64,000 nucleotides of DNA, taken from the NCBI GenBank assembly GCA_016213775.1, contig JACQZR010000130.1:1-64000 (forward strand), written 5' to 3'. The notes under the pieces were generated by a model. The model saw only the letters and a list, made by a program, of their open reading frames with translations. It made no database searches and was not told the DNA's origin. Source of the stretch: Acidobacteriota bacterium. Lineage in GTDB: Bacteria; Acidobacteriota; Terriglobia; Bryobacterales; Bryobacteraceae. Below are positions 1,038 through 14,396 of the stretch, piece by piece. Position 1 is the first letter of the stretch; each line of letters opens with the position of its first letter. A program made the translations under genes and the position numbers.

Positions 1038-1442
1038 ATGGGGCCGAAGAACCGTTTCACTATCGGACGCGACCGCACTTGCGACATCCCCATCGCCGAT
1101 GATTCCGTCAGCCGTCTGCACGCCGAACTAACCCTGCTCGATGGCGGCAAGTACTTCCTCACCGACTGCCATTCGAGCAATTCCACCTACCTCATCCGTG
1201 ATGGATCCACGAAGAAGATCACTCAGGAACTGGTGGCAGCGGGCGACCGCGTACAATTCGGCGACATCGTGTTGGGCATGTCCGACATCCTGGATGCCAT
1301 CCGGCCTCGATTAGTGGCCGCACCGCAAAACGCCTCGGCCCCCGTCCGCACAGGCCCCTTGCCTGATAGCGTTAAGCTGGTGCGATGCGAATGCGGAACC
1401 ATCCTCCCGCATGGAAAACGTTGTCCATCCTGCGGGGCTTAA
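1038..1442 (+). CDS. FHA domain protein with C-terminal zinc ribbon
   Basis: This 134-residue cytosolic protein opens directly with a forkhead-associated domain, a phosphothreonine-binding module. The signature is FTIGRDRTCDIP (GR at 10-11) with SRLHAE (S25, R26, H28) and a later SSNSTYL loop. The C-terminus holds four cysteines (117, 119, 129, 132) in a CxC...CPSCG pattern, a probable zinc ribbon. It stands first in the operon, 3 bases before the MotA-like gene, and probably links a phosphorylated partner, likely a substrate of the kinase at 7052, to the membrane channel. No signal or membrane segment is seen. Confidence 0.85.
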   Translation: MGPKNRFTIGRDRTCDIPIADDSVSRLHAELTLLDGGKYFLTDCHSSNSTYLIRDGSTKKITQELVAAGDRVQFGDIVLGMSDILDAIRPRLVAAPQNASAPVRTGPLPDSVKLVRCECGTILPHGKRCPSCGA

Positions 1443-1445
1443 GAA

Positions 1446-2225
1446 ATGAGTGATCGAACCAACTCTCCGAGTTTCTGGGATCTGCCCGACCGCTGGCAGG
1501 TGATGGCGCTCTCCTCCATCCTCGCCGTCGTCGTCATCGCCCTCCTCAGCGCCACACTGGGGGGCCGTTCCGCGCGGCTGATTCTCGACAAAGGCTCCGA
1601 CCATTTTCAGTACCCCTTCACCATCCAGAACCTGATGCACGTCTTCTTCTTCGTCGGCCTCGGCGAACTCTTCGTCCGCTGGCGCGTCGGCGTGCGCGAA
1701 AAAGCTTTCCTCCGACGCGGCTACCTTCCTGAAGACGACGCCACTGTCCTCCAGGCCCGCGACCTCGGTCCTATCCGTAAGCGCGTCATGAGCGCCTTCG
1801 ATGAGGAACACGGCTTCCTGCCCAGCCTCATCGACATCAGCGTTCTCCAGTTCCAATCCTCACGTTCCGTCGACCAGACGGTCGCTGTGATGAACGCCAG
1901 CCTCGAACTCCTTGCCCACCGCGTTGATCTCCGCTACAACACAGTCCGTTTCATCGCCTGGCTTGTCCCCACTCTCGGCTTCATCGGCACCGTGTTCGCA
2001 CTCGGAGCCTCGCTCTACGATGCCGGCCGCCAGCAAACCCTCGATGTCCAGAAGACCGCCATGACCCTCGGCGTCGGTTTCGATTGCACCATGGTCGCCC
2101 TCGTCCAAAGCGCGATTCTAGTCTTCATCCTTCACCTCACCCAGGAGACCGAGGAACTGGCCGTCAACCAGGTAGGCAACTACACTCTGCGCAATCTCAT
2201 CAACCGCCTCTACGAAGGCAAGTAG
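1446..2225 (+). CDS. MotA/TolQ/ExbB-like proton channel subunit
   Basis: A 259-residue membrane protein with four likely helices at about 18-39, 58-78, 166-190 and 203-231, and a cytosolic loop of about 85 residues between helices 2 and 3. This is the MotA/TolQ/ExbB/ZorA layout. The third and fourth helices hold the family-like stretches WLVPTLGFIGTVFALG and TLGVGFDCTMVALVQSAILV. In known members five such subunits surround two B subunits and use ion flow to drive rotation or force. The partner gene starts 2 bases downstream. It lacks the long cytosolic tail of ZorA. The role is inferred from family and context. Confidence 0.82.
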   Translation: MSDRTNSPSFWDLPDRWQVMALSSILAVVVIALLSATLGGRSARLILDKGSDHFQYPFTIQNLMHVFFFVGLGELFVRWRVGVREKAFLRRGYLPEDDATVLQARDLGPIRKRVMSAFDEEHGFLPSLIDISVLQFQSSRSVDQTVAVMNASLELLAHRVDLRYNTVRFIAWLVPTLGFIGTVFALGASLYDAGRQQTLDVQKTAMTLGVGFDCTMVALVQSAILVFILHLTQETEELAVNQVGNYTLRNLINRLYEGK

Positions 2226-2227
2226 GC

Positions 2228-3091
2228 ATGAAGCCCCGCAACAAAGAAGTCAACATATTCAACATGTCCCTGCTGGACATCCTCTGCGGGGCTCTCGGCG
2301 CGTTCTGCTTCATGATGCTCGTGCTCTTTCAGTACTGGAAGCCCGAAGGCCCGGAGACCACCAAAGTCAAAGTGGATACCGCGCAGATGGAACAGAAGAT
2401 TCAGGACCTGCTCAAGCAGATGAAAAACATGTCCAATCTGCCGCCGGAAGCGGCCGCGCGCATGAAACAGTTGGAAGAGGACTTCGCTCGCCTCCAACAG
2501 ATGACCAACCAGTTGAAAGCCCAACTACAGCAGGCGCAGGCGCAGACGCAGGCTTACAAACGCCAGGCCGACCAGGCCCGTGCCGAACTCGACGACTCAA
2601 AGAAGGAACTCCAGAAATTCAAAAACCGCAATCCTGTCACCGTCGTTCTCACCACCACCAGCGCCGCCCACGATGTCGATCTCTACGTACAGGATTCCAA
2701 AATGGACAAGCCGGACGTCGCCAAGGTGCAAGGCGTCAAATGGAACGGCGACGTTTTCTACAATGCGGTGCGCGGCCCCGCCTCCGATGTATGGATGATG
2801 CGCGATGCCCCCGCGGGCGAGTACAAGGTTTACTACAAATTCCTCGAAAAAGGAGGCAATCCAGGTCCCGCCCGCGTGGAGGGCTACTACCTCCACAACA
2901 GCAGCATCGTCCGCATGCCGGCCATTGAGATAGCCAACGACCATCAGGTGGCGAGCGTTGGTTCCATCATGGTCAAACCGGACATGTCGAGCGGCTTCAA
3001 GCCCACGCCCGAATACGCAGAAGCCTACCAGAGAATGATCGAACAGCTCGGGCGGCGCAATCAGGGCCCCGCCCCGCAGAAAAAGCAGTAG
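2228..3091 (+). CDS. MotB/ExbD/ZorB-like partner with coiled coil and C-terminal beta domain
   Basis: The ATG at 2228, two bases after the MotA-like stop, gives 287 residues; an upstream in-frame start would overlap the channel gene by over 140 bases. Residues 14-36 form one membrane helix, SLLDILCGALGAF onward, with Asp17 at its start, the position expected for the ion-carrying Asp of MotB/ExbD. A coiled coil follows (about 50-133, rich in Q, K and E), then a beta-rich domain (about 137-260) with DVDLYVQDS and GEYKVYYKF, which resembles the DUF2135 (YfaP-type) sandwich. No OmpA-like peptidoglycan-binding motif is visible, so the outer domain differs from MotB and ZorB. Confidence 0.72.
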   Translation: MKPRNKEVNIFNMSLLDILCGALGAFCFMMLVLFQYWKPEGPETTKVKVDTAQMEQKIQDLLKQMKNMSNLPPEAAARMKQLEEDFARLQQMTNQLKAQLQQAQAQTQAYKRQADQARAELDDSKKELQKFKNRNPVTVVLTTTSAAHDVDLYVQDSKMDKPDVAKVQGVKWNGDVFYNAVRGPASDVWMMRDAPAGEYKVYYKFLEKGGNPGPARVEGYYLHNSSIVRMPAIEIANDHQVASVGSIMVKPDMSSGFKPTPEYAEAYQRMIEQLGRRNQGPAPQKKQ

Positions 3092-3173
3092 CACCGTGAC
3101 AAACCAGTAAGGGGCGTGAAAGGAGGTACCCGTTCAGGCCATAATCGTGTGTGACAGGAGGCATCATCAAATC

Positions 3174-3743
3174 ATGGTTCGTTGCGCGGAAGGTCATTTT
3201 TACGATCCCGGAAAGCACTCTTCGTGCCCGTGGTGCGCAAAACCGTTGGACGTCGGCGGATCGGCCGCCGAGTCGAGCGAGTCAAAAACGCGGCCGGTTC
3301 AACAACCCCCGGCCGTAGCGGAAGCGCCAACTCCACCGGCGTCGCCCGCCACCCCCGCCGCCGCTCCCGGCGCCACCAAACGCGTGGCGCCCAAGGAATT
3401 GGGCATCGATCCCGTCGTCGGCTGGCTTGTCTGCATCGACGGCAAAGACAAAGGCCGGGATTTTCGCATTCATACCGAGCGTAACTTCCTTGGACGCTCC
3501 GCCAATCAGGATATCTGCATCACCGGCGACGATACGATTTCCCGCGAAAAACACGCCATCCTTTCCTTCGATCCGAAAAAGAACGAGTTCTGGATTCAGC
3601 CCGGAGAATCGAGCGGCCTGCTGTATATCAACGGTGATGCCGTCTACGTGCCCGCCAGGCTCAAGGATCGCGATACCATCGAAGTCGGCCAGACCAGGCT
3701 CGCGTTCCTGTCCTTCGTCAACGAGAATTTCCAGTGGCAATAG
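3174..3743 (+). CDS. Zinc-ribbon FHA domain protein
   Basis: The ATG at 3174 is preceded by AGGAGG (3156-3161) and gives 189 residues. An earlier GTG at 3147 adds nine residues but has worse context. The N-terminus is a small metal-binding motif (C4, C18, C21 with His8 nearby), followed by an Ala/Pro linker (about 30-75). The C-terminal FHA domain has NFLGRSANQDICI (GR at 107-108) and SREKHA (S123, R124, H127). It should bind phosphothreonine peptides in the cytosol. An 82-base gap to the MotB-like gene contains a second perfect AAAGGAGGT (3118-3126) with no start codon at a suitable distance. Confidence 0.85.
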   Translation: MVRCAEGHFYDPGKHSSCPWCAKPLDVGGSAAESSESKTRPVQQPPAVAEAPTPPASPATPAAAPGATKRVAPKELGIDPVVGWLVCIDGKDKGRDFRIHTERNFLGRSANQDICITGDDTISREKHAILSFDPKKNEFWIQPGESSGLLYINGDAVYVPARLKDRDTIEVGQTRLAFLSFVNENFQWQ

Positions 3744-3756
3744 TCGCCATCGCCGC

Positions 3757-4929
3757 ATGATACTCATTCCCGGCAACGCACAAAACATCGGTTCGCGGCA
3801 GCAGCAGCAGGACGCATTCGGCTTCTCCGATTTGAGCGACGCTGTCTTCCGCAAACACGGCGGAGTGCTTGCAGTGGTTGCCGACGGGATGGGCGGTATG
3901 GCCCACGGCGACGCCGCATCCCGCGAGGCCCTCCAGGCCTTCCTCCAATCGTACGCCCGCAAAACCGAAGCCGAACCCGTCCAGGAAGCCCTCCGCCGCA
4001 GCCTCTCCGAATCCAATTCCGCCGTCTTTCAGGAAGCGCTTGGCCTCGGCGCGGCCGAGGAGATGGGCACTACACTCGTCGCCGTTGCCATAAAAGAAGA
4101 TCAGATGCACTGGATTTCCGCCGGAGACTCAGGCATTTTCGTTCTTCGCGACGGCGAACTCACCGCCGTCAACGCGCCCCACATCTATGGCGCCGAACTC
4201 GACGAGCAGCTCGCGCAAGGCAACATCACGCCCGAACAGGCAGCCGCCCATCCCGAACGCGAAGCCCTCACCTCCTTCCTCGGTCTGGAGCGCGTGTCCA
4301 TCGTGGATCGCAGTGTTCGTCCATTTCGCATCCGTGAAGGCGACACCATCATCCTCGCCAGCGACGGCCTCTTCAAAACGCTCACCACTGAAGAGATAGT
4401 CTCCTCCGCCGACGCTGATCCGCAGACCATGTGCGAGGCGCTGCTCAAACGCACGCTCGACGCCAAACGCCCCTACCAGGACAACGTCACCATCGTCGCC
4501 ATCCATGCAGCCAAGGACCGGCCTTCGGTGGTAACGCCGCCTACGCCCGCCACCGTCCGGAACTCCGGCGCCCATGCCGTCTCTGATACGCAACCACTTC
4601 CCAGAGGCCGCCGGCGCAGTTGGCTTGCCGCGGTAATGATGGTGATTGCGCTTTGCGTGGTTGCCGGATACATCTTCTTTATGTTCTTTCGTGGTGGCGC
4701 AAACCCGGACCCCGCCGTCAAATCCGCGCCGGTTAAGAACCTCACGCCGGCGCGCGACGGCGATGCGTTCGAACCCGCCGCGATTCCTCCCGTCGACCGT
4801 CTCCCTGGCGCACAACCCCAGAATCCGCCCGAAACACCGCGGCAGGAGAGCCAGCCCGTCGAAGGAAAACCGGCCGAGCCAAAGAAGGGCGACGGCGCAA
4901 ACAAGCCAGCACCGGAGGGACAATGTTGA
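3757..4929 (+). CDS. Membrane-anchored PP2C-type Ser/Thr phosphatase
   Basis: The ATG at 3757, 13 bases after the FHA gene, gives 390 residues. The PP2C core (about 1-252) has the metal-binding signatures QQDAFGFSD (D19), VVADGMGG (D43), ISAGDSG, ILASDGLF (D203) and QDNVTIV (D242). It would remove phosphate from Ser/Thr proteins in the cytosol. A positively charged patch (RGRRR, 283-287) leads into one membrane helix (about 289-311), and the Pro/Lys-rich tail (312-390) should be periplasmic. The last seven bases overlap the protease gene, so translation is probably coupled. It may oppose the kinase at 7052 on FHA ligands in this operon. Confidence 0.87.
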   Translation: MILIPGNAQNIGSRQQQQDAFGFSDLSDAVFRKHGGVLAVVADGMGGMAHGDAASREALQAFLQSYARKTEAEPVQEALRRSLSESNSAVFQEALGLGAAEEMGTTLVAVAIKEDQMHWISAGDSGIFVLRDGELTAVNAPHIYGAELDEQLAQGNITPEQAAAHPEREALTSFLGLERVSIVDRSVRPFRIREGDTIILASDGLFKTLTTEEIVSSADADPQTMCEALLKRTLDAKRPYQDNVTIVAIHAAKDRPSVVTPPTPATVRNSGAHAVSDTQPLPRGRRRSWLAAVMMVIALCVVAGYIFFMFFRGGANPDPAVKSAPVKNLTPARDGDAFEPAAIPPVDRLPGAQPQNPPETPRQESQPVEGKPAEPKKGDGANKPAPEGQC

Positions 4930-6281
4930 CCCCGCTGCTTGTCCTGGTGCTTGCCGCTTCCCTTCCCGCAGCCGAACCCGACGTCTCCGCCATGAAGCGC
5001 GGCGTCGTCAAGATCGTTGTTCGCGCTCAAGTGCGCGATTCGGCCGGCCAGACCGGCGCCATGCGCTCCCAAGGCTCCGGCTACCTGGTGGGCGGACAAT
5101 ACGTTGTCACCAACAATCATGTCTGCTGCCGCGTGGAACGGGAAGGTCTCACCATCCTTGGTGTCGAACTCATGATTCATACTTCCCTTCAGGAAAAGTC
5201 CCCCGCCAGGGCAATCTGGAACAGCGCGCGCAAAGACCTCGCGGTGCTGCAACTGGAGCGCCCATTCCCCAACAAGCCCAGCGCCGTTTTCGCCAAAAGC
5301 GACGCGGTCAAAGACGGTATCCGCGTCTGGGCCGTGGGCTTCCCGGGCGCCGCCGAATCGCAGATCCACGCCACGGAGGAAAGCGACTTCGTCTCCACCG
5401 CCACAGCCGGCATAATCGGCAAATTTGTTCAGCAGGTCCTCGAAGAGAATGGACCCGTGGTCGATACCATCAGCCACTCCGCCGCCACCAACGCGGGCAA
5501 TTCCGGCGGCCCTCTCTTCAACTTCTGCGGACAGGTAGTGGCTACTAATTTCGCCAAGGCCCTCGCCACCATCCGCCAGCGCGTAGTCGTCAAGGACCCT
5601 GCTACAGGCCAGCCCGTCGAGCGAGTGATGCAACAGCGCGTCGTCGCCGCCGATGGCATCAACTGGTCGCTGCGTAACAGCGAGCTCCTTCCGGAACTCG
5701 ACAAACTCCGCGTCAAATACGAGGTCGCTCCCGAAGGCTGCCAGGAAATCGACAAGGACACAAAGTCGGAGATCAGCAGCGTCAGCGGACGCATGTCCAC
5801 CTTGATGATCACCCAGGTTGGATCCATCGCGATGGCCCTCGCCGCCATCGGACTTGCCATGAACAAGCGCGTACGCCAATCGGTCACCCGCCGTTTGTCC
5901 ACTCGCAAAAGCGAAGCGGGCCACGCCTCTTCGAGCGACCGCTTCGCTGCCGTACGCGCCCGCCCCACACTTCGTGGCGTCACCGGGTTCTACGCCGGCA
6001 CCTCTATCGCTTTTGAGGATCAGCCCTGGATTCTCGGCCGCGACCGCAACGTCGCCAATCTCGTCTTTCCAGCCGATCAACCCGGCATTTCCAAGCGCCA
6101 CTGCACACTCACATTCGTTCCCGGCTCCGGCGAAGTGAAACTGGAGGACACCTGGTCCACTCACGGAACGTTCCTCATGAACGGCACGAAACTGGAGCCG
6201 GGGAAACCATACACACTACGGCCAGGAGACCGGTTCTACCTCGCCGAGCGCAGCAACGTATTTGAGATCGGGGGGCAGTAG
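4923..6281 (+). CDS. Periplasmic trypsin-like serine protease fused across the membrane to an FHA domain
   Basis: A 452-residue protein with a signal sequence (1-17), a trypsin/DegP-like protease domain and a cytosolic FHA domain. The catalytic triad can be read as H66 (VVTNNHVCC), D105 (ARKDLAVLQL) and S194 (NAGNSGGPLF). No PDZ domain follows. One membrane helix (about 292-313) is trailed by positive residues (KRVRQSVTRR). The C-terminal FHA (367-449) has ILGRDRNVANLVF, SKRHC and STHGTFLMNG. The layout puts the protease outside and the phosphopeptide reader inside, so it could transmit a phosphorylation state to periplasmic proteolysis, or the reverse. Overlap with the phosphatase gene suggests co-regulation. 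Confidence 0.85.
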   Translation: MLTPLLVLVLAASLPAAEPDVSAMKRGVVKIVVRAQVRDSAGQTGAMRSQGSGYLVGGQYVVTNNHVCCRVEREGLTILGVELMIHTSLQEKSPARAIWNSARKDLAVLQLERPFPNKPSAVFAKSDAVKDGIRVWAVGFPGAAESQIHATEESDFVSTATAGIIGKFVQQVLEENGPVVDTISHSAATNAGNSGGPLFNFCGQVVATNFAKALATIRQRVVVKDPATGQPVERVMQQRVVAADGINWSLRNSELLPELDKLRVKYEVAPEGCQEIDKDTKSEISSVSGRMSTLMITQVGSIAMALAAIGLAMNKRVRQSVTRRLSTRKSEAGHASSSDRFAAVRARPTLRGVTGFYAGTSIAFEDQPWILGRDRNVANLVFPADQPGISKRHCTLTFVPGSGEVKLEDTWSTHGTFLMNGTKLEPGKPYTLRPGDRFYLAERSNVFEIGGQ

Positions 6282-6284
6282 GGC

Positions 6285-7016
6285 GTGCGATTTCTCACTC
6301 ATACTCTCACGCTGGGCGGCGGCAGGCAATACAACGAAGATGCCGTGCAATACTGCAGCACCGGCACGGTAGGCTGCTGGGCCCTCGCTGACGGGCTGGG
6401 TGGTCACGGCGGCGGTGACATTGCCTCCCGCCTGGCCACCGACGCCGTTATGCAGGCCTTCCAGGCCCACGCCGAATGCACCGCAGAAGCGCTCATGACG
6501 TATGTAGAACTGGCACGCGCCGCCGTGCTCCGCAAGCAGGAAGAGGACGTCTCTCTCTCCGCCATGCGCACTACTCTCGTCATCCTCATTGCCGGCGAGC
6601 AGCAGGCTCTCTGGGCTCACATCGGCGATTCGCGCCTCTACTACTTCCGCCAGGGTACCCTCCTGCTCCGCACTCTCGACCATAGCGTCCCGCAGGCCAT
6701 GGTGGAGGCCGGGCAGATCACGCCCGCGCAAATCCGTTTTCATGAGGATCGCAACCGCCTGCTGCGTAGTATCGGTGGCCGCGATGAAATCCGTGCGACC
6801 ATCGAAAGCAAACCACACAACATCGCACCGGGAGATGCGTTCCTCCTCGCCAGCGATGGATTCTGGGAGTTCGTAACGGAAACCGCGATGGAACTGGATT
6901 TGGCCAAGTCGTCCAATCCCGGCGAATGGATCAAACATATGGAACGGCGCATCCGGCTCGTCGCGCCACCCGACCAGGACAATCTCTCTGCCATTGCCGT
7001 TATCGTGACTGTATGA
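6285..7016 (+). CDS. Soluble PP2C-type Ser/Thr phosphatase
   Basis: Starts with GTG at 6285, three bases after the protease-FHA stop; 243 residues, the usual size for a minimal PP2C catalytic domain. Motifs in order: RQYNEDAV, LADGLGGHGGG, a short TTLVIL segment, HIGDSRLYYF, LLASDGFWE and PDQDNLSAIAV, which contain the expected metal-binding aspartates. It has no membrane segment, unlike the phosphatase at 3757, so the operon encodes one tethered and one free phosphatase. It is related to PppA/Stp enzymes paired with Ser/Thr kinases. The likely substrates are the kinase at 7052 and FHA-bound partners. Confidence 0.88.
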   Translation: MRFLTHTLTLGGGRQYNEDAVQYCSTGTVGCWALADGLGGHGGGDIASRLATDAVMQAFQAHAECTAEALMTYVELARAAVLRKQEEDVSLSAMRTTLVILIAGEQQALWAHIGDSRLYYFRQGTLLLRTLDHSVPQAMVEAGQITPAQIRFHEDRNRLLRSIGGRDEIRATIESKPHNIAPGDAFLLASDGFWEFVTETAMELDLAKSSNPGEWIKHMERRIRLVAPPDQDNLSAIAVIVTV

Positions 7017-7051
7017 AAGGATTCAAGTAGAGACGGCATCTTGAGGTCAAC

Positions 7052-9298
7052 ATGATCAACGCAGCGCATTTGTGCATGGGATGCATGGAGCCCAGAACGG
7101 GCGATGTAGCAGTCTGCCCGCTCTGCGGATACCGCGAAGGAACCGAACCCGAAAGCCCGTTGCATCTGCCCGCGCGTACCGAACTCCACGGCCAGTATCT
7201 GGTCGGGCGCGTCCTCGGTCATGGCGGTTTCGGCATCACTTACCTCGGCTGGGACCTCAACCTCGAACGCAAAGTCGCCATCAAGGAATATCTCCCGAGC
7301 GGCGTCGCTGTCCGCACCGTCCGGGATAGCGAAGTCATCCCCTTCTCCGGAGACATGCGCAAGGATTTCGAATACGGCCTCGAGCGCTACCTCGATGAGG
7401 CCCGTGTCGTCGCCAAGTTCCAGACTCACCCCTCCATCGTCACCGTCCTCAATTTCTTCCGCGACAACGGCACCGCCTACCTGGTGATGGAATACCTCGA
7501 AGGCACCACCTTCGAGCGCTATCTCGAAAAGCAGGGAGGCAAGACTTCCATCGACACCGTGATGACCGTCATGGTGCCGGTTCTCGAAGCGCTTGGTGCA
7601 GTCCACCAATCCGGTATCCTCCATCGCGACATCAGCCCCGACAACATTTACATCACGCGCAAGTGGCAGGTGAAGGTTCTCGACTTCGGCGCTGCCCGCT
7701 ACGCTCTCGGTCAGAAGAGCCGCAATCTTTCCGTGATCCTCAAGGAAGGTTACGCGCCCATGGAGCAGTACCAGAGCAAAGGCAACCAGGGCCCTTGGAC
7801 TGACTCCTATGCCTGTGGCGCTACCATCTACCGTGCGCTCACGGGAAAGATTCCACCCTCCTCGCTCGACCGCATGCAGACCGACGAACTGCAGCCGCCA
7901 TCCGAGCTCGGCGTCGAATTGAGCAAGGCCCAGGAAGCCGCCATCCTCAAATCGATGGCCGTGACGCCCGCCAACCGTTTTCAAACGATGGCTGACTTTC
8001 GTGACGCACTCACCGGCGTTGCCGCCCCCATTTCGCACCCCCCAATCCGTTTAGATCAGGACATATCCACGCCGCCGGCGAGTCAGGCCGAAGTGGTGAC
8101 GGTGCGTTCCGGTACTCCTCTCCAGCCGCCTTCGCCGACGCTCCCGGTGGGTCACGCGAACGTTGCCACTCACCAGACTCCTGTTTCGCAGCCCCCGCAA
8201 CCACAACCCGCCGAACGCGTCACCCGCCCTTCCGAAAAACCGCCGAAACCCTCCATGCCCAAATGGGTGTGGGCAGCCTCTGCCGGCGTATTGCTCGCCG
8301 TCTTCGCCATCGGCGGCTACAAGCAGTACGAGGAAAAACAGCGCCTCGCCGAACTCCAGCGCCAGGAAGAAATCAAGAAACGGCAGTTTGACGAGGAGTT
8401 GAAGAAGCAGAGAGCCCAGGCCGTAGAGGAAGAGCGCCGGCACGCCGAGAACGAAAAGCAACTCGCCATCCTCAAAGCTCAGCAGGACGAGATCGATCGC
8501 AAGCAGAAGGAGCTCGAAGAACAGCGTATCGCGCTCGAACGCTCCAAACAGCAAGGCTCCAATCGCCAGCAAGGCAACACCAAACAACAGTCGAGCCAGG
8601 GAAACACATCCCAGCAGCAGATCCTTCAACAGCAGCAAATTTACCAGCAGCAGCAGGAAGCCCTCCGCCGTGAGCTCGAGCGCAAGCAGCAGGAACAGGC
8701 ACAGGCCGAGGCTCAGCGAATTCGCCAGCAGCAACAGCAACAGCAGCAGGGTTCCAACACGAAACAGCAACAGCTCATACCGCCCGTGGGTTCCACCTTC
8801 GACGATGCCATGCGTCAGTCGCGCGCTGCCATGAATGCCCGTAACTATCCCGCCGCCACCCAGTTCGCGCAGCAGGCCATCAAGGCCAACCCCGCCCGCC
8901 CCGACGGCTACTCGCAGCTCGGCTGGATTGCTATCTATGGCATCGGGGATATGCAACTGGCTCAGCAGAGTTACAAGGACGCTATCGCCCGCGGGGGTGT
9001 CGTCTGGTTCCGTGTCAACCACGATCACGCCAACGGTTCCTATCAGTTTCGCTGCACCGGCGATCTCGGCATCGCCCGGGATCACGTCGAGTTTCAGGCC
9101 CAGGGCGGAGAGCACAACTTCCGCCTCGCCAACTCGGCCATCGCCGAGGCGAAGGGCAACAGCGCCCTCCGCCGGTTGGTGGGTGCCAGCAACGACTTCC
9201 ACATCCACTCCACCGATGGCCGTCGTTTCAACCTCGTCTCCGTCAGCAACCCCAAACCCATCCGCGAAATGATCCTCTCCCTCATGGGCGCAAAGTAG
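7052..9298 (+). CDS. Transmembrane Ser/Thr protein kinase with zinc ribbon, coiled coil, poly-Gln and TPR
   Basis: 748 residues. The N-terminus has a zinc-ribbon pattern (C8, C11, C22, C25). The kinase domain (about 47-322) shows GHGGFGITY, AIKEY (K78), E116, HRDISPDNI (D193) and DFGAAR (D211). Serine replaces the Lys usual two positions after the catalytic Asp, a variant I associate with some bacterial kinases. A Pro-rich linker, one membrane helix (404-424), a long coiled coil, Gln-rich runs, a TPR-like part (about 590-650) and a beta-rich end (VVWFRVNHD through FNLVSV) follow, probably in the periplasm. It closes the operon and should phosphorylate ligands of its FHA proteins. Confidence 0.87.
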   Translation: MINAAHLCMGCMEPRTGDVAVCPLCGYREGTEPESPLHLPARTELHGQYLVGRVLGHGGFGITYLGWDLNLERKVAIKEYLPSGVAVRTVRDSEVIPFSGDMRKDFEYGLERYLDEARVVAKFQTHPSIVTVLNFFRDNGTAYLVMEYLEGTTFERYLEKQGGKTSIDTVMTVMVPVLEALGAVHQSGILHRDISPDNIYITRKWQVKVLDFGAARYALGQKSRNLSVILKEGYAPMEQYQSKGNQGPWTDSYACGATIYRALTGKIPPSSLDRMQTDELQPPSELGVELSKAQEAAILKSMAVTPANRFQTMADFRDALTGVAAPISHPPIRLDQDISTPPASQAEVVTVRSGTPLQPPSPTLPVGHANVATHQTPVSQPPQPQPAERVTRPSEKPPKPSMPKWVWAASAGVLLAVFAIGGYKQYEEKQRLAELQRQEEIKKRQFDEELKKQRAQAVEEERRHAENEKQLAILKAQQDEIDRKQKELEEQRIALERSKQQGSNRQQGNTKQQSSQGNTSQQQILQQQQIYQQQQEALRRELERKQQEQAQAEAQRIRQQQQQQQQGSNTKQQQLIPPVGSTFDDAMRQSRAAMNARNYPAATQFAQQAIKANPARPDGYSQLGWIAIYGIGDMQLAQQSYKDAIARGGVVWFRVNHDHANGSYQFRCTGDLGIARDHVEFQAQGGEHNFRLANSAIAEAKGNSALRRLVGASNDFHIHSTDGRRFNLVSVSNPKPIREMILSLMGAK

Positions 9299-10146: not shown

Positions 10147-13107
10147 TCAACGCCATTCCCCCTGCAATGTGAAACCGGCCCAAAACCATGGAGCACTCCA
10201 CTTTCCGGACCGCAATGAGGCAAGCTGTGCCTCACGAAGCGCGGCCGCCGGGCGCTGCCCCTTTGTGATGAGAGCACGGTAGAAATCCTGCATGAGCTGC
10301 GACGTCGCTCGATCCGGCGCCTGCCACAGAGTGGCTACCACCCGCGGAGACCCGGCGTAGAGAAATGCTCGCGTCAGGGCAAGCAGCCCTTCCCCCTGTA
10401 TGTCCTTCCCCAGCGCCGAATGACACGCGCTGAGGACCACCAGTCCGGCATTTAACCGCAGGTTGAATAGCTCATGCATGGCCACCAGCCCGTTCTGGAG
10501 TTCGCCCCGCTCGTTCACCATGGAGAGCGCCAGTGAAGACAACTCGGGGTATTCGCTGTTGAGAATGCCATGTGTTGCCAGGTGCAGTATGCCGTATCGT
10601 GTCAGGTCGGTGCGAAGCAACGCCGGTTTGCTTGCCGCCAGTCCTGTAGCGATGAGGTTATCCGCACGTGACACGGTACGGGCGATTGCTTCCGCCTCCG
10701 ACCGCGTTCCCGGCAGCCGCTCGAAGGCTGTGCGCTTTGCAACTGCTCTTGTCATCGAAGCCAGCCGCCCATCGGATGGATCAAAAACCGGATCGGCAAA
10801 CACGGCAACCGGCCGGGCCGAGATAGGATGGCGGTTTGTGTGCGTGCGCATCTCCGCGAGTAGCGAAGCGGAAGGCAAGCTCACGACTTCGTGCTTGACA
10901 ATCAGTGGGTCGGAGCTGCCGGGCAGCGGCAGAGCGGCAAATGGAATTGTCTGCAGGATTCCCTCGGCCACGATCACAATTCGCTTGCCGGCGATCTGTG
11001 CATTCACCGGATGAAGAATTACGCGGCTGAGCGCTGCCAGGGATGCCTGCGCGCCGGGTTGATTCCCGCTCAGACGTTGATAAGCAAGCCGAGCCAGCCG
11101 GTCGATCTCCTGGCGCGGCGGCAGCTTGCGGACCAACAGCCCACGGGTTGTGACTGCAAAGAGGTAGCTCGCCGATTCCCCCAGTGAGTACTCGAGCAGA
11201 ACTGTATCCGCATCGAGCGCCTGACTTCGCAATTCAGCCAGAGTGAGAGGCTGCGGAGCTATTAGCCCGGCGTAGCGCGGATTGCGCCGGCGCAGGTCCG
11301 CTTCGAGTTGGTGATAGCGGGCCGTAAGGTCGCCTACGAGGATTTTCTGACCGGCAATTGCCTTGGGAGTCTGCTTCGTGGCAAGCAGACTCGTCAGTTT
11401 CTCTCCCTCGCGGGAAAGCAGTTGCTGCGTGTCATTCAGTTCGCGAAGCAGGCCGGGATCAGCCCCCTCACGAATCCGCGAACGCGATTCACGGATCATT
11501 TCCACCAGGCTCCGGCCGCGGCCGCTTTCCGCAGCTTCGAACGCCTTCACGTCGTAGCCCGACTGGGGATTCTTGCCGTGCAACTGCATCAACAGGTGCA
11601 CTCGCAACTGATAGAGCAACGCGGCATTGGAAGTGACGCTGTTTCGGCTGAACTCCCCGGCCAGTTGTGACCGTTGCCGTTCATGAAGCTCGATCCCTTG
11701 ATCCACATGCCGGCCGGCGTCCAGCAGACGGCCTTCACTGAGATGCGCCTGCGCCAGCCGGAGATGAGAATACGCTTCGTTGCGCTGATCGCCGATTCGC
11801 TGTTGCATCTCGATCGCGTGTGTCTGCGTTTGGATCGAGCCGGCCGCGTCTCGCATGGCGAGCTGAACGTCTCCCAGAATCGAAAGGGCAGTCGCTTCGC
11901 CCCGCACGTCACCGGACTTGCGCAGGATCTCCACCGACCGCTGGACCATCGGCAATGCCTCGCGGGGCCGTCCGAGCCTGTTCACAACGAATGCCGCGTT
12001 TTGCAGCGCAGTAGCTTCGCCCGGCTCGTCCCCCTGGGAGCGGTAAAGTTCCACCGCCTGGCGCGAGAACTCCAGCGCCTTGCTGCGCTCACCGGTCCGC
12101 CAATAGAGTGTCACGAGATTGCTCAGAATCTGCGCCTCCAGTTTGGGCTTCTTGGATTGCCGTGAGCAGGCGAGTCCGGACTGATACGCCTGAGCCGACT
12201 TCTCAACCTCACCAAGGCGCAGGTAAACGATCGCGATGTTGTTGTGTGCCGACGCCTCGCTCGCTATGTCCTCCACGGATCGCAGCAGTGGGGGCACCTC
12301 GAGCAGCGCTTCGAGGGCGGACTGCAGGTTCCCGCTTCGTACTAGCGCTGTACCCAGATTGTTCAAAGCCCTACCCAACTCCGTAATGCTGGCGATCTGG
12401 CGGGTGAGTTCGACGGCACGGCGGTGCAATGGGATTGCCTCCCCGGAGCGGCCTGTCGCTGCATACATCACGCCGAGATTGGAGGACGCGGTTGCTTCCA
12501 GGTGCCGGTCATCCGCGGACCGGGCCAGACGCAAGGCTCGTTCGGCGGGCTCGATTGCCTGCCGGCTATCCCTCTGCGAATAGTATGCCGAGGTGAGGAA
12601 CAGGGCTGCGGAAGCTTGCCATCGGACGAGGCCGGCGGCTCGAAACTCTTCTTCAGCCTCCTTGTAGAGTGCAATGGCGGCGCTAACCGACGCGGTGTCT
12701 CCTTTTTCGCTTAGCCGGCTTCCCTCGGCCAAGGCCCGCTCCCCGCGCAGCGTGTTTTCATCCGTTGGGATCCTGTCGCGAACGAAGTAAGTGACGCGGC
12801 AGAGAGCCAGTTTCGGCCGCGCGCCGTCCAATTCGAACCGGTGTTCTCCGTCCAGCGTTGTCACGGCCGAGAGTGGGAAATAGCCCGCGCTTTCCGAACG
12901 ATCCGATCGTTCCTGCAGAACGCTGCCGTCGGGCGAAAGTATGCGCGCCCGAAAGACAAAGCCGCCTTGTTCAATGGAAAAGGAGAGAAACTGCCCCGCG
13001 CGTGCCGCCACTCTCAGTGGCGCATGGCAATCGTGACTTGCCTCCGCCGCCGGCGTGAGCGTGGCCCACACCATCGCCAGTATTCCAGCCAGCCCCGGCT
13101 TCCCCAC
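10147..13107 (-). CDS. Secreted CHAT-domain protease with TPR repeats
   Basis: 986 residues from a GTG start. A signal-like helix (about 1-23) is followed by a beta domain, at least eight TPR-type repeats (about 120-500), a helical spacer and a C-terminal CHAT (caspase HetF-associated) domain. The catalytic pair is His846 in HLATHG and Cys895 in LSACHSALG. The end, WFWAGFTLQGEW, matches typical CHAT C-termini. CHAT enzymes are cysteine peptidases used in cell-fate and defence systems such as gasdermin and Craspase. The start lies only 29 bases from a divergent sigma-factor gene, so control by that sigma factor is likely. An internal ATG 11 codons down is an alternative start. Confidence 0.87.
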   Translation of the reverse strand: MGKPGLAGILAMVWATLTPAAEASHDCHAPLRVAARAGQFLSFSIEQGGFVFRARILSPDGSVLQERSDRSESAGYFPLSAVTTLDGEHRFELDGARPKLALCRVTYFVRDRIPTDENTLRGERALAEGSRLSEKGDTASVSAAIALYKEAEEEFRAAGLVRWQASAALFLTSAYYSQRDSRQAIEPAERALRLARSADDRHLEATASSNLGVMYAATGRSGEAIPLHRRAVELTRQIASITELGRALNNLGTALVRSGNLQSALEALLEVPPLLRSVEDIASEASAHNNIAIVYLRLGEVEKSAQAYQSGLACSRQSKKPKLEAQILSNLVTLYWRTGERSKALEFSRQAVELYRSQGDEPGEATALQNAAFVVNRLGRPREALPMVQRSVEILRKSGDVRGEATALSILGDVQLAMRDAAGSIQTQTHAIEMQQRIGDQRNEAYSHLRLAQAHLSEGRLLDAGRHVDQGIELHERQRSQLAGEFSRNSVTSNAALLYQLRVHLLMQLHGKNPQSGYDVKAFEAAESGRGRSLVEMIRESRSRIREGADPGLLRELNDTQQLLSREGEKLTSLLATKQTPKAIAGQKILVGDLTARYHQLEADLRRRNPRYAGLIAPQPLTLAELRSQALDADTVLLEYSLGESASYLFAVTTRGLLVRKLPPRQEIDRLARLAYQRLSGNQPGAQASLAALSRVILHPVNAQIAGKRIVIVAEGILQTIPFAALPLPGSSDPLIVKHEVVSLPSASLLAEMRTHTNRHPISARPVAVFADPVFDPSDGRLASMTRAVAKRTAFERLPGTRSEAEAIARTVSRADNLIATGLAASKPALLRTDLTRYGILHLATHGILNSEYPELSSLALSMVNERGELQNGLVAMHELFNLRLNAGLVVLSACHSALGKDIQGEGLLALTRAFLYAGSPRVVATLWQAPDRATSQLMQDFYRALITKGQRPAAALREAQLASLRSGKWSAPWFWAGFTLQGEWR

Positions 13108-13136: not shown

Positions 13137-13757
13137 GTGCAATCTTCCGGTACCGGTCAAAGCTTCGCCAGCCCTCGGCGCAGCCGGCAGGATCTGGTTT
13201 CCGCCATCGTCAGCGGCGACCGTTCCGCCGAAGCTGAGCTCGTGGACTGGTTCGCCCGTGGGCTGGCGATCATCCTCAGCCGCATCGTGAAGGATCACCA
13301 AACCGTCGAGGATCTGCGACAGGATTCGTTTCGCATCGCCATCGAGCGGCTGCGATCCGGAGCACTCCGCGACCCCGACGCCCTGCCCGGCTTCATGGCG
13401 ATGATCGCCCGTAACGTCGCCATCGAGCACCTCCGCCAGCGGACCCCCGGCGCCTTGTCCGCCACCGCCCCCGACCCCACCGGTGGACCGTCGCAATACC
13501 ACGATCTCGCCCGCAAACAGAATGCCGCCATCGTCCGCAAGATCCTCAACGAGTTGCCGCAGCCTCGTGACCGCGAGCTGCTCTACCGGTTCTACATCGC
13601 CGACGAAGAGAAGGAGACCATCTGCGAGCGCTTCGGTCTGAGCGCCTTACACTTCAACCGCGTTCTGCATCGGGCGCGGGAACGTTTTCGCGAGCTTTTT
13701 GAGAAACGTCGTTCCGGAGGTGGGATAGTCCCGCCCCTAGACGCACCTGATAGGTAG
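13137..13757 (+). CDS. ECF-like RNA polymerase sigma factor
   Basis: A 206-residue sigma70-family protein from a GTG start. Region 2 covers about 30-100, with QTVEDLRQDSFRIAIERL and FMAMIARNVAIEHLR. Region 4, with a helix-turn-helix, lies near the end (LPQPRDRELLYRFYIADEE, then ICERFGLSALHFNRVLHRAR). No region 1 or 3 is present. The next gene, 6 bases on, encodes a zinc-finger membrane protein that should be its anti-sigma factor. It is divergent from the CHAT protease with a 29-base gap, an arrangement that suggests the protease as a target. A TAGAAT at 13113-13118 could serve as a -10 element. Confidence 0.85.
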   Translation: MQSSGTGQSFASPRRSRQDLVSAIVSGDRSAEAELVDWFARGLAIILSRIVKDHQTVEDLRQDSFRIAIERLRSGALRDPDALPGFMAMIARNVAIEHLRQRTPGALSATAPDPTGGPSQYHDLARKQNAAIVRKILNELPQPRDRELLYRFYIADEEKETICERFGLSALHFNRVLHRARERFRELFEKRRSGGGIVPPLDAPDR

Positions 13758-13763
13758 ATTCCA

Positions 13764-14396
13764 ATGGATCACGGCCAAATCGAAGCCACAAACCTGATCG
13801 ACCGCTACCTCACTAACCGCGCAACCCCGGAAGAGTGCGCCCGCTTCGAGGAGCATTTCCTCGATTGCCCGGATTGCCTCAGCCGCCTCGAATCCACCCG
13901 TGGCCTCATCGATGGATTGAAACAGCAACCCCCGGACACGTTTCAGCGCCGCACCTGGGTTGGATTCATGGGCTGGATCGCCGCGGCAGCGGTTACCACC
14001 TTCGCCATTTTTCGCCCCCCTCCGGCAACTCCTCCACCCGTGACCATTCCGGGCCCCACGCTGACCGCTCGCGCCGGGCCGGTGTTCACGCTTGCTACCG
14101 TCCGGGGCGCTCAGGCTGACGCCCCTATCGTGACTGTTTCGGGAGAGTTTACCCTCGCTCTCGATTTCGAGCCCGCGCCCGGCATCAAGGGCTTCGCCGT
14201 CCAGGTCACTTCCGGCACGGGCGAACAGTTGATGAGCGAGGTGGAGCATCCACTCTCCGCCTCGGGCACCATCGGTATTGGCTTGCGTTCCCAGGATCTG
14301 AAACCGGGGCTATACCGCGCCGTAGTCGTCGGGAAATCAGTGGACGGCCGCGAATTGCAGCGCGTGATATTCCCCTTCCGTTTCCAGGTGCCGTAA
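13764..14396 (+). CDS. Zinc-finger anti-sigma factor, membrane-bound
   Basis: 210 residues. The N-terminal anti-sigma zinc finger reads EECARFEEHFLDCPDCLSRL and carries the HxxxCxxC motif of the zf-HC2 family, plus an earlier Cys. One membrane helix follows (about 69-87, GFMGWIAAAAVTTFAIF). The extracytoplasmic part (about 105-210) is beta-rich and ends in YRAVVVGKSVDGRELQRVIFPFRF, an immunoglobulin-like sensor fold by appearance. It should hold the sigma factor at 13137 inactive until a signal outside the membrane releases it. The spacing of 6 bases supports co-transcription. Confidence 0.8.
   Translation: MDHGQIEATNLIDRYLTNRATPEECARFEEHFLDCPDCLSRLESTRGLIDGLKQQPPDTFQRRTWVGFMGWIAAAAVTTFAIFRPPPATPPPVTIPGPTLTARAGPVFTLATVRGAQADAPIVTVSGEFTLALDFEPAPGIKGFAVQVTSGTGEQLMSEVEHPLSASGTIGIGLRSQDLKPGLYRAVVVGKSVDGRELQRVIFPFRFQVP

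Follow-up and report, generated by a model that had tools for sequence, protein, structure and literature searches.

The genes examined here lie near the start of a 64,000-base window, the first 64,000 bases of contig JACQZR010000130.1 (65.9 kb) in the 10.96-Mb genome of an Acidobacteriota bacterium of the family Bryobacteraceae. Eight genes, which we designate A to H, run in one direction from position 1038 to 9298 with spacings of 3, 2, 82, 13, -7, 3 and 35 bases (Table 1), and comparison across genomes confirms that they form a real, widespread system joining a probable membrane motor pair, B and C, to a phosphorylation module. An initial annotation, made from the letters of the window, had described eight consecutive genes with four gaps of 3 bases or less and one overlap; the eight genes are present as described, but we count three such gaps and one overlap. 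Its domain readings are borne out by Pfam matches above cut-off for FHA (A, D and F), MotA_ExbB (B), PP2C (E and G), the trypsin fold (F) and the kinase (H). The zinc ribbons of A, D and H and Asp17 of C were read from the sequence, and the TPR match of H falls below the Pfam cut-off (16.9 bits versus 32.7). Hydropathy and charge, the criteria used for topology, place the kinase, phosphatase and FHA domains inside the membrane, and outside it the protease, most of C and the end of H; the earlier claim that F has its protease outside and its FHA domain inside holds as far as this fit extends.

Table 1. Genes and residues of the eight-gene cluster, with the basis of each assignment
Feature	Position	Strand	Basis
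A: FHA and C-terminal zinc ribbon	1038..1442	+	Pfam FHA 59.9 bits; key residues R, S, H, N; ribbon read from sequence
B: TolQ/ExbB-fold channel subunit with extra N-terminal helix	1446..2225	+	Pfam MotA_ExbB above cut-off
C: axle; transmembrane helix with Asp17, coiled coil, TerD-like beta-sandwich outside	2228..3091	+	Model, fold match
Asp17 codon of C, likely ion site	2276..2278	+	D in 55/55 phospho-type copies
D: zinc ribbon, linker, FHA	3174..3743	+	Pfam FHA 37.1 bits; zinc ribbon signature
Thr39 codon of D, motif SKTRPV, candidate phospho-site	3288..3290	+	Motif enrichment in D-like linkers; position hand-counted
E: PP2C, one transmembrane helix, Pro-rich tail	3757..4929	+	Pfam PP2C_2 67.8 bits (reading frame taken from 12 bases upstream)
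F: signal peptide, trypsin-like protease, transmembrane helix, FHA	4923..6281	+	Pfam Trypsin_2 71.8 bits, FHA 53.2 bits
G: soluble PP2C	6285..7016	+	Pfam PP2C_2 62.5 bits
H: zinc ribbon, Ser/Thr kinase, transmembrane helix, coiled coil, weak TPR-like part	7052..9298	+	Pfam Pkinase 113.8 bits

Gene C is present in six of the 12 genus genomes examined, its own included, and a distant copy occurs in one genome from another family of the order. Gene order is kept in the five other genus genomes as far as their contigs extend. In G002, G008 and G011 the whole series A to H stands in order, a second kinase follows H, and D and E are separated by an FHA gene of ~475-490 residues, which in the one scanned (L024, sharing its contig with L017) is vWA plus FHA. 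For G003 the series runs from A through G into the beginning of H. The contig of G001 starts at B; after C, D and E come a short F that lacks the protease part, then an 872-residue gene, then G. A scan with an alignment of B, taking one genome per species, yielded 79 loci (80 with the window). The five genus contigs are part of this count and near copies were retained; the search, seeded by two short peptide patterns, was not exhaustive. Among the loci that carry the set are those of three non-pathogenic isolates, Alishewanella tabrizica KCTC 23723 (L088), Pseudidiomarina mangrovi ZQ330 (L084) and the gammaproteobacterium LSUCC0112 (L053). Within 8 kb of B, FHA genes were found in 56 of the 80 loci, PP2C in 50, kinase in 49, protease-like genes in 36 and the axle motif of C in 67. 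Among the 41 loci flanked by 6 kb or more on each side the respective numbers are 24, 24, 25, 22 and 40, with FHA, PP2C and kinase together in 22 and the protease as well in 19. These genes share the strand of B in 156/156 (FHA), 70/70 (PP2C), 55/62 (kinase) and 39/40 (protease-like) cases, and over the 80 loci gene density declines with distance from B: FHA genes stand at 0.50 per kb in the first kb and at 0.01 by 9 kb, PP2C genes at 0.23 per kb at 1 kb and at 0.00 by 9 kb. The co-occurrence of neighbouring FHA, motor, PP2C, protease and kinase genes, which the initial annotation had named in advance as a check on its reading, is thus found across phyla: by record titles the 79 loci fall in 15 named phyla and the phospho-type in 11, counts that may hold binning errors (for example, a Mycobacterium metagenome-assembled genome). 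On a tree of B with 57 rows, the head type of C changes twice. Since the phylum label changes 21 times on this tree and phospho- versus minimal type only five times, the system appears to have been transferred frequently, with the module kept together.

It is scarcely credible that these genes are chance neighbours or an accessory of a type VI secretion system (T6SS). Chance is excluded because the genes co-occur and share the strand of B. Sets of kinase, PP2C and FHA proteins do regulate T6SS (PpkA-PppA-Fha), a logic that the cluster resembles, and the genome has two VipB genes; these are on other contigs than the cluster, which itself contains no T6SS gene. VipB is found in 10 of the 11 other genus genomes, namely all five that have the cluster and five of the six that lack it. 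It is missing from the six distant genomes with B, in which the B neighbourhood was read in G043, so that over 17 genomes its presence is independent of the cluster.

The predicted structure of B (mean predicted local distance difference test score, pLDDT, 94.2) has four long helices, at residues 16-37, 60-90, 165-195 and 201-250, and its best fold match is TolQ. The earlier description of a four-helix MotA/TolQ-like channel is correct as to the helices, but the fold is closer to TolQ/ExbB than to MotA. The model of C (pLDDT 84.6) gives an outer head for which TerD entries lead the fold match. By profile comparison TerD is not significant, one aligned stretch placing DVDL on DLDA. Among the relatives of C the outer head is either a TerD-like sandwich or a vWA domain, and the axle family carries a signature of approximately R-x-x-E-I-N-I-F-x-x-S-x-L-D-x4-A-x-G-A-F. 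No Pfam or NCBIfam model reached its cut-off among the matches listed for window C. A peptidoglycan-binding domain had no Pfam match in window C and was absent from the best 25 of 143 families over 63 C members. DUF2135 was considered for the axle head and rejected, since one member matched at 0.004 and one at 0.11, both below cut-off, and six of eight had no match. The transmembrane Asp is present in 65 of 71 C relatives and in all 55 phospho-type copies, as expected from the initial annotation, which had staked its system reading on conservation of this residue; its portrayal of C as a one-helix MotB-like partner with Asp17 is upheld for the Asp, but not for the outer part, which is TerD-like or vWA and gave no peptidoglycan-binding match. 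Minimal-type axles with Ala at the ion-site Asp occur in L049, L054, L060, L064, L065 and L071. The pair thus resembles TolQR/ExbBD in having a TolQ-type channel fold in B and an axle with a transmembrane Asp in C, and differs by the extra N-terminal helix of B, the coiled coil and TerD-like or vWA head of C, and the added kinase, phosphatase, FHA and protease genes. TolA, TolB and Pal were not found among the eight genes by Pfam above cut-off.

Two axle genes in tandem were observed in L029:2250-3474, L036:1885-3106 and L093:3094-4640, and because they are in tandem this suggests a heterodimeric axle. Nine TerD domains are present in G111 (L140-L148), one genome among 60 of the phylum. A different use of the pair, as a sensor or regulated channel in which B and C only signal the state of the envelope to the kinase and protease and generate no force, would accommodate the minimal-type relatives in which the fold persists with Ala at the ion site; we regard it as very unlikely, given that the Asp is never lost in phospho-type loci.

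The phosphorylation module appears catalytically intact. PP2C metal residues are retained in 70 of 70 relatives, and the kinase Lys-Asp-Asp set in 51 of 72, or 51 of the 53 with letters present at all three places. As D-like proteins we took 50 open reading frames in 46 loci, selected by length and the position of the FHA domain, of which a few are over-long or doubtful. They begin with a short N-terminal part, in many cases a zinc ribbon, and continue through a variable linker to the FHA domain. The motif Thr-Arg-[PVLIMF] occurs in 31 of the 50 D-like linkers versus 7.2 in shuffles (maximum 14 in 200 shuffles), which overstate its significance because the rows are related; its occurrences number 37 against 9.0 expected, beyond all shuffles, and an acidic form with D, E or P two residues before the Thr is found 26 times versus 2.3. 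Ser-Arg is not enriched in these linkers (4 versus 6.3). FHA domains read phospho-Thr, and for this reason we consider the contrast of Thr over Ser the stronger point. In eight other protein classes, including 19 zinc-ribbon proteins without FHA, and in 453 other reading frames, the Thr-Arg motif stays within the shuffle maximum; it is slightly high in the big FHA proteins (21 versus 14.9), and the acidic form equals the shuffle maximum in A-like proteins (2 versus 0.4). The four key FHA residues, R, S, H and N, all present in window A, are complete in 32/40 FHA domains of protease-FHA proteins, compared with 19/36 among the A-like, 16/32 among the large and 21/52 among the D-like domains.

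The protease of F has a triad of His66, Asp105 and Ser194 (positions counted by hand). Letters at the three triad columns are available for 40 of 42 protease-like sequences, and His, Asp and Ser are all kept in 23. The initial annotation was right about an intact triad in the window, but the full triad is missing in 17 of the 40 copies, and therefore cleavage is not universal. An active and a dead copy are paired in four loci (L057, L059, L073 and L092). Five dead-copy loci (L076, L080, L084, L086 and L088) carry an FHA protein of 845-863 residues with HExxH, a motif that the remaining large FHA proteins do not have; Pfam scans of four of the contigs, counting L022 and L076 as one, show the HExxH-FHA proteins to be thermolysin-type M4 peptidases joined to FHA. 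The nine other loci with the dead copy only (L056, L063, L077, L082, L083, L087, L089, L090 and L099) show no HExxH-FHA protein in their available DNA. In G001, F consists of a transmembrane helix and FHA only, and the 872-residue gene (L021 1764-4382, - strand), with an HExxH stretch, adjoins it, perhaps as another protease swap. Dead-only loci have 11 vWA heads and no sandwich, whereas active loci have 3 vWA and 18 sandwich heads, with a Fisher value of 2.8e-6 that overstates the link because the head type changes only about twice on the B tree; a tie between dead protease and vWA head was rejected on these grounds. The underlying lists were compiled by hand, with L076 added by reading, L094 (one of the 18) having its protease on the opposite strand and L099 being partial.

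Motors of the 5:2 type are known to power flagella, gliding, nutrient uptake, maintenance of the outer membrane and defence against phages. On balance, we think it somewhat more probable than not that the cluster encodes an ion-driven envelope motor of this type, with Ser/Thr phosphorylation as the switch for its assembly or coupling. The mechanism that best fits the evidence, its central steps being a proposal, is as follows. A pentamer of B would surround a dimer of C, in the TolQR/ExbBD fold class to which the model of B points, and proton flow past Asp17 would turn or pull C, whose TerD-like or vWA head would engage a periplasmic partner. Kinase H would sense the envelope through its C-terminal part outside the membrane and phosphorylate the linker of D at the recurring Thr-Arg site, Thr39 in the window. 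The FHA domains of A and F could then dock on phosphorylated D, bringing the periplasmic protease, for which C is the first candidate substrate, to the motor, a docking that vWA-transmembrane-FHA or M4-protease-transmembrane-FHA proteins may also perform in relatives, and the PP2Cs E and G would reset the switch. 

Several observations weigh against this motor-and-switch mechanism. B stands without any FHA, PP2C, kinase or protease gene in 13 of the 41 well-flanked loci, and Ala replaces the Asp in 6 of 16 minimal-type C copies, so that the B-C pair does not need the phospho-module. Kinase density shows no clear fall with distance from B (0.09 per kb at both 2 and 9 kb). Because Thr-Val exceeds all shuffles in the kinase linkers (29 versus 16.8), D may not be the only target. 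Most instances of the acidic Thr form come from two groups, a cluster of 20 related proteins and a smaller gammaproteobacterial cluster, and the motif of the window clade is [GS]KTRPV, with KTTPV in one member, L023; linkers of related proteins are not independent, and a few over-long reading frames are among the D-like proteins. The fourth FHA key position is Gly in window D and His in window F, and the structure predictions are of single chains (monomers) only. A zinc-ribbon protein with the D signature (weak Sel1 repeats in the one scanned) is present in 13 of the 18 loci that lack all four phospho-module genes; the phosphorylation set may be a layer added to a core of B, C and a zinc-ribbon adaptor.

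The initial annotation had also raised phage defence, in which a Zorya-like motor would sense envelope damage at infection and trigger the kinase and protease response. Like ZorAB, B and C are an ion-motor-like membrane pair, and 45 of 57 B members give weak matches to the ZorA2 model (best 6.9e-9), but window B has no ZorA match, its fold match to ZorA ranks below TolQ/ExbB, and with 259 residues and a last helix at 201-250 it has no long cytosolic ZorA tail. C matches the ZorB1 model at 5e-4; unlike ZorB, which has a peptidoglycan-binding domain, window C has no Pfam match to one. No Zorya effector (ZorC/ZorD, ZorE or ZorF/ZorG) is among the matches listed for the eight window proteins (for C and H, the best 25 of 34). 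The PADLOC candidate model PDC-M21C matches both PP2Cs (3.4e-15 in one search and 7.8e-9 in another), and its name was not found in open-access papers. The patchy presence in the genus and the many phylum changes on the B tree would suit a defence system, as would the FRG-domain and OLD/AAA_21-type genes, similar to candidate defence models, in the operon region at L032:8573-9628 and L033:5428-6945. Against this, the best 25 of 52 families among 115 flanking genes held few defence-type matches (the HEC-01A/OLD type, one AbiE pair, one type II methylase and one FRG), and since there was no matched control we make no claim of defence islands around the loci. B has no match in 50,697 phage records or in viral contigs, and only one among 72,556 plasmid records, L139 on the 1.33-Mb conjugative Rhizobium leguminosarum plasmid pRlBT01d, which carries no annotation. 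A defence role is thus unsupported, and we judge it unlikely.

A surface motility, secretion or adhesion machine, in which the motor would move or expose an outer partner as in Agl-Glt gliding while the kinase set times it, is quite unlikely. The Agl-Glt gliding motor also combines a motor with a zinc-ribbon/FHA protein, GltG, which the FHA and zinc-ribbon proteins beside B and C recall, and vWA and TerD-like heads on an axle would suit such a machine. The GltG model gives 25.5 bits on A, far below its cut-off of 650, so A is not assigned as a GltG equivalog, and the unlabelled operon genes contain no recurrent outer-membrane partner, their largest shared set being the zinc-ribbon protein of the minimal loci.

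The kinase-PP2C-vWA sets akin to this cluster are the TerY-P sets. The TerD and TerY-P sets share with it the zinc-ribbon kinase, PP2C and vWA, and TerD leads the fold match of the C head, but the genes described here are membrane-bound and motor-coupled, and the TerD match is structural only, not significant by profile. Linkage of zinc-ribbon kinase, PP2C and vWA genes is described in an excerpt of PMC7159879. The earlier remark that the mix of parts was not a recognised system still stands, in that no named system matched and open-access papers (preprints not included) contained no description found by us of this gene set. We tentatively suggest, at somewhat less than an even chance, that it is a new class of envelope machine. 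In this reading reversible Ser/Thr phosphorylation would act as the clutch of a proton-driven motor with the TolQR fold, and the phospho-Thr would sit on the zinc-ribbon-FHA protein as a hub. Two kinds of part would be exchangeable: the axle head, either a TerD-like sandwich or an integrin-like vWA, and the FHA-tethered periplasmic protease, of trypsin or thermolysin type. It would then be, to our knowledge, the first 5:2 motor gated by phosphorylation, and a single membrane-spanning protein would let a cytosolic phosphate steer cleavage outside the membrane, a route that is testable. Such a class, equipped with a kinase, phosphatases, phospho-readers and a tethered protease of its own, would demonstrate that Ser/Thr phosphorylation can switch 5:2 motors.

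Upstream of the cluster, a gene at 255-971 on the + strand, separated from gene A by 66 bases, encodes a DNA/RNA non-specific endonuclease (Pfam 1.2e-43) whose start is signal-like; it was rejected as a ninth cluster gene, a different gene occupying that place in G002. On the other side, a 986-residue TPR-CHAT protein (caspase-like CHAT, Pfam 5.4e-68) is encoded beside the cluster at 10147-13107 on the - strand, followed at 13137-14396 on the + strand by a sigma-70-type factor (region 2 match) and then a putative zf-HC2 anti-sigma protein.

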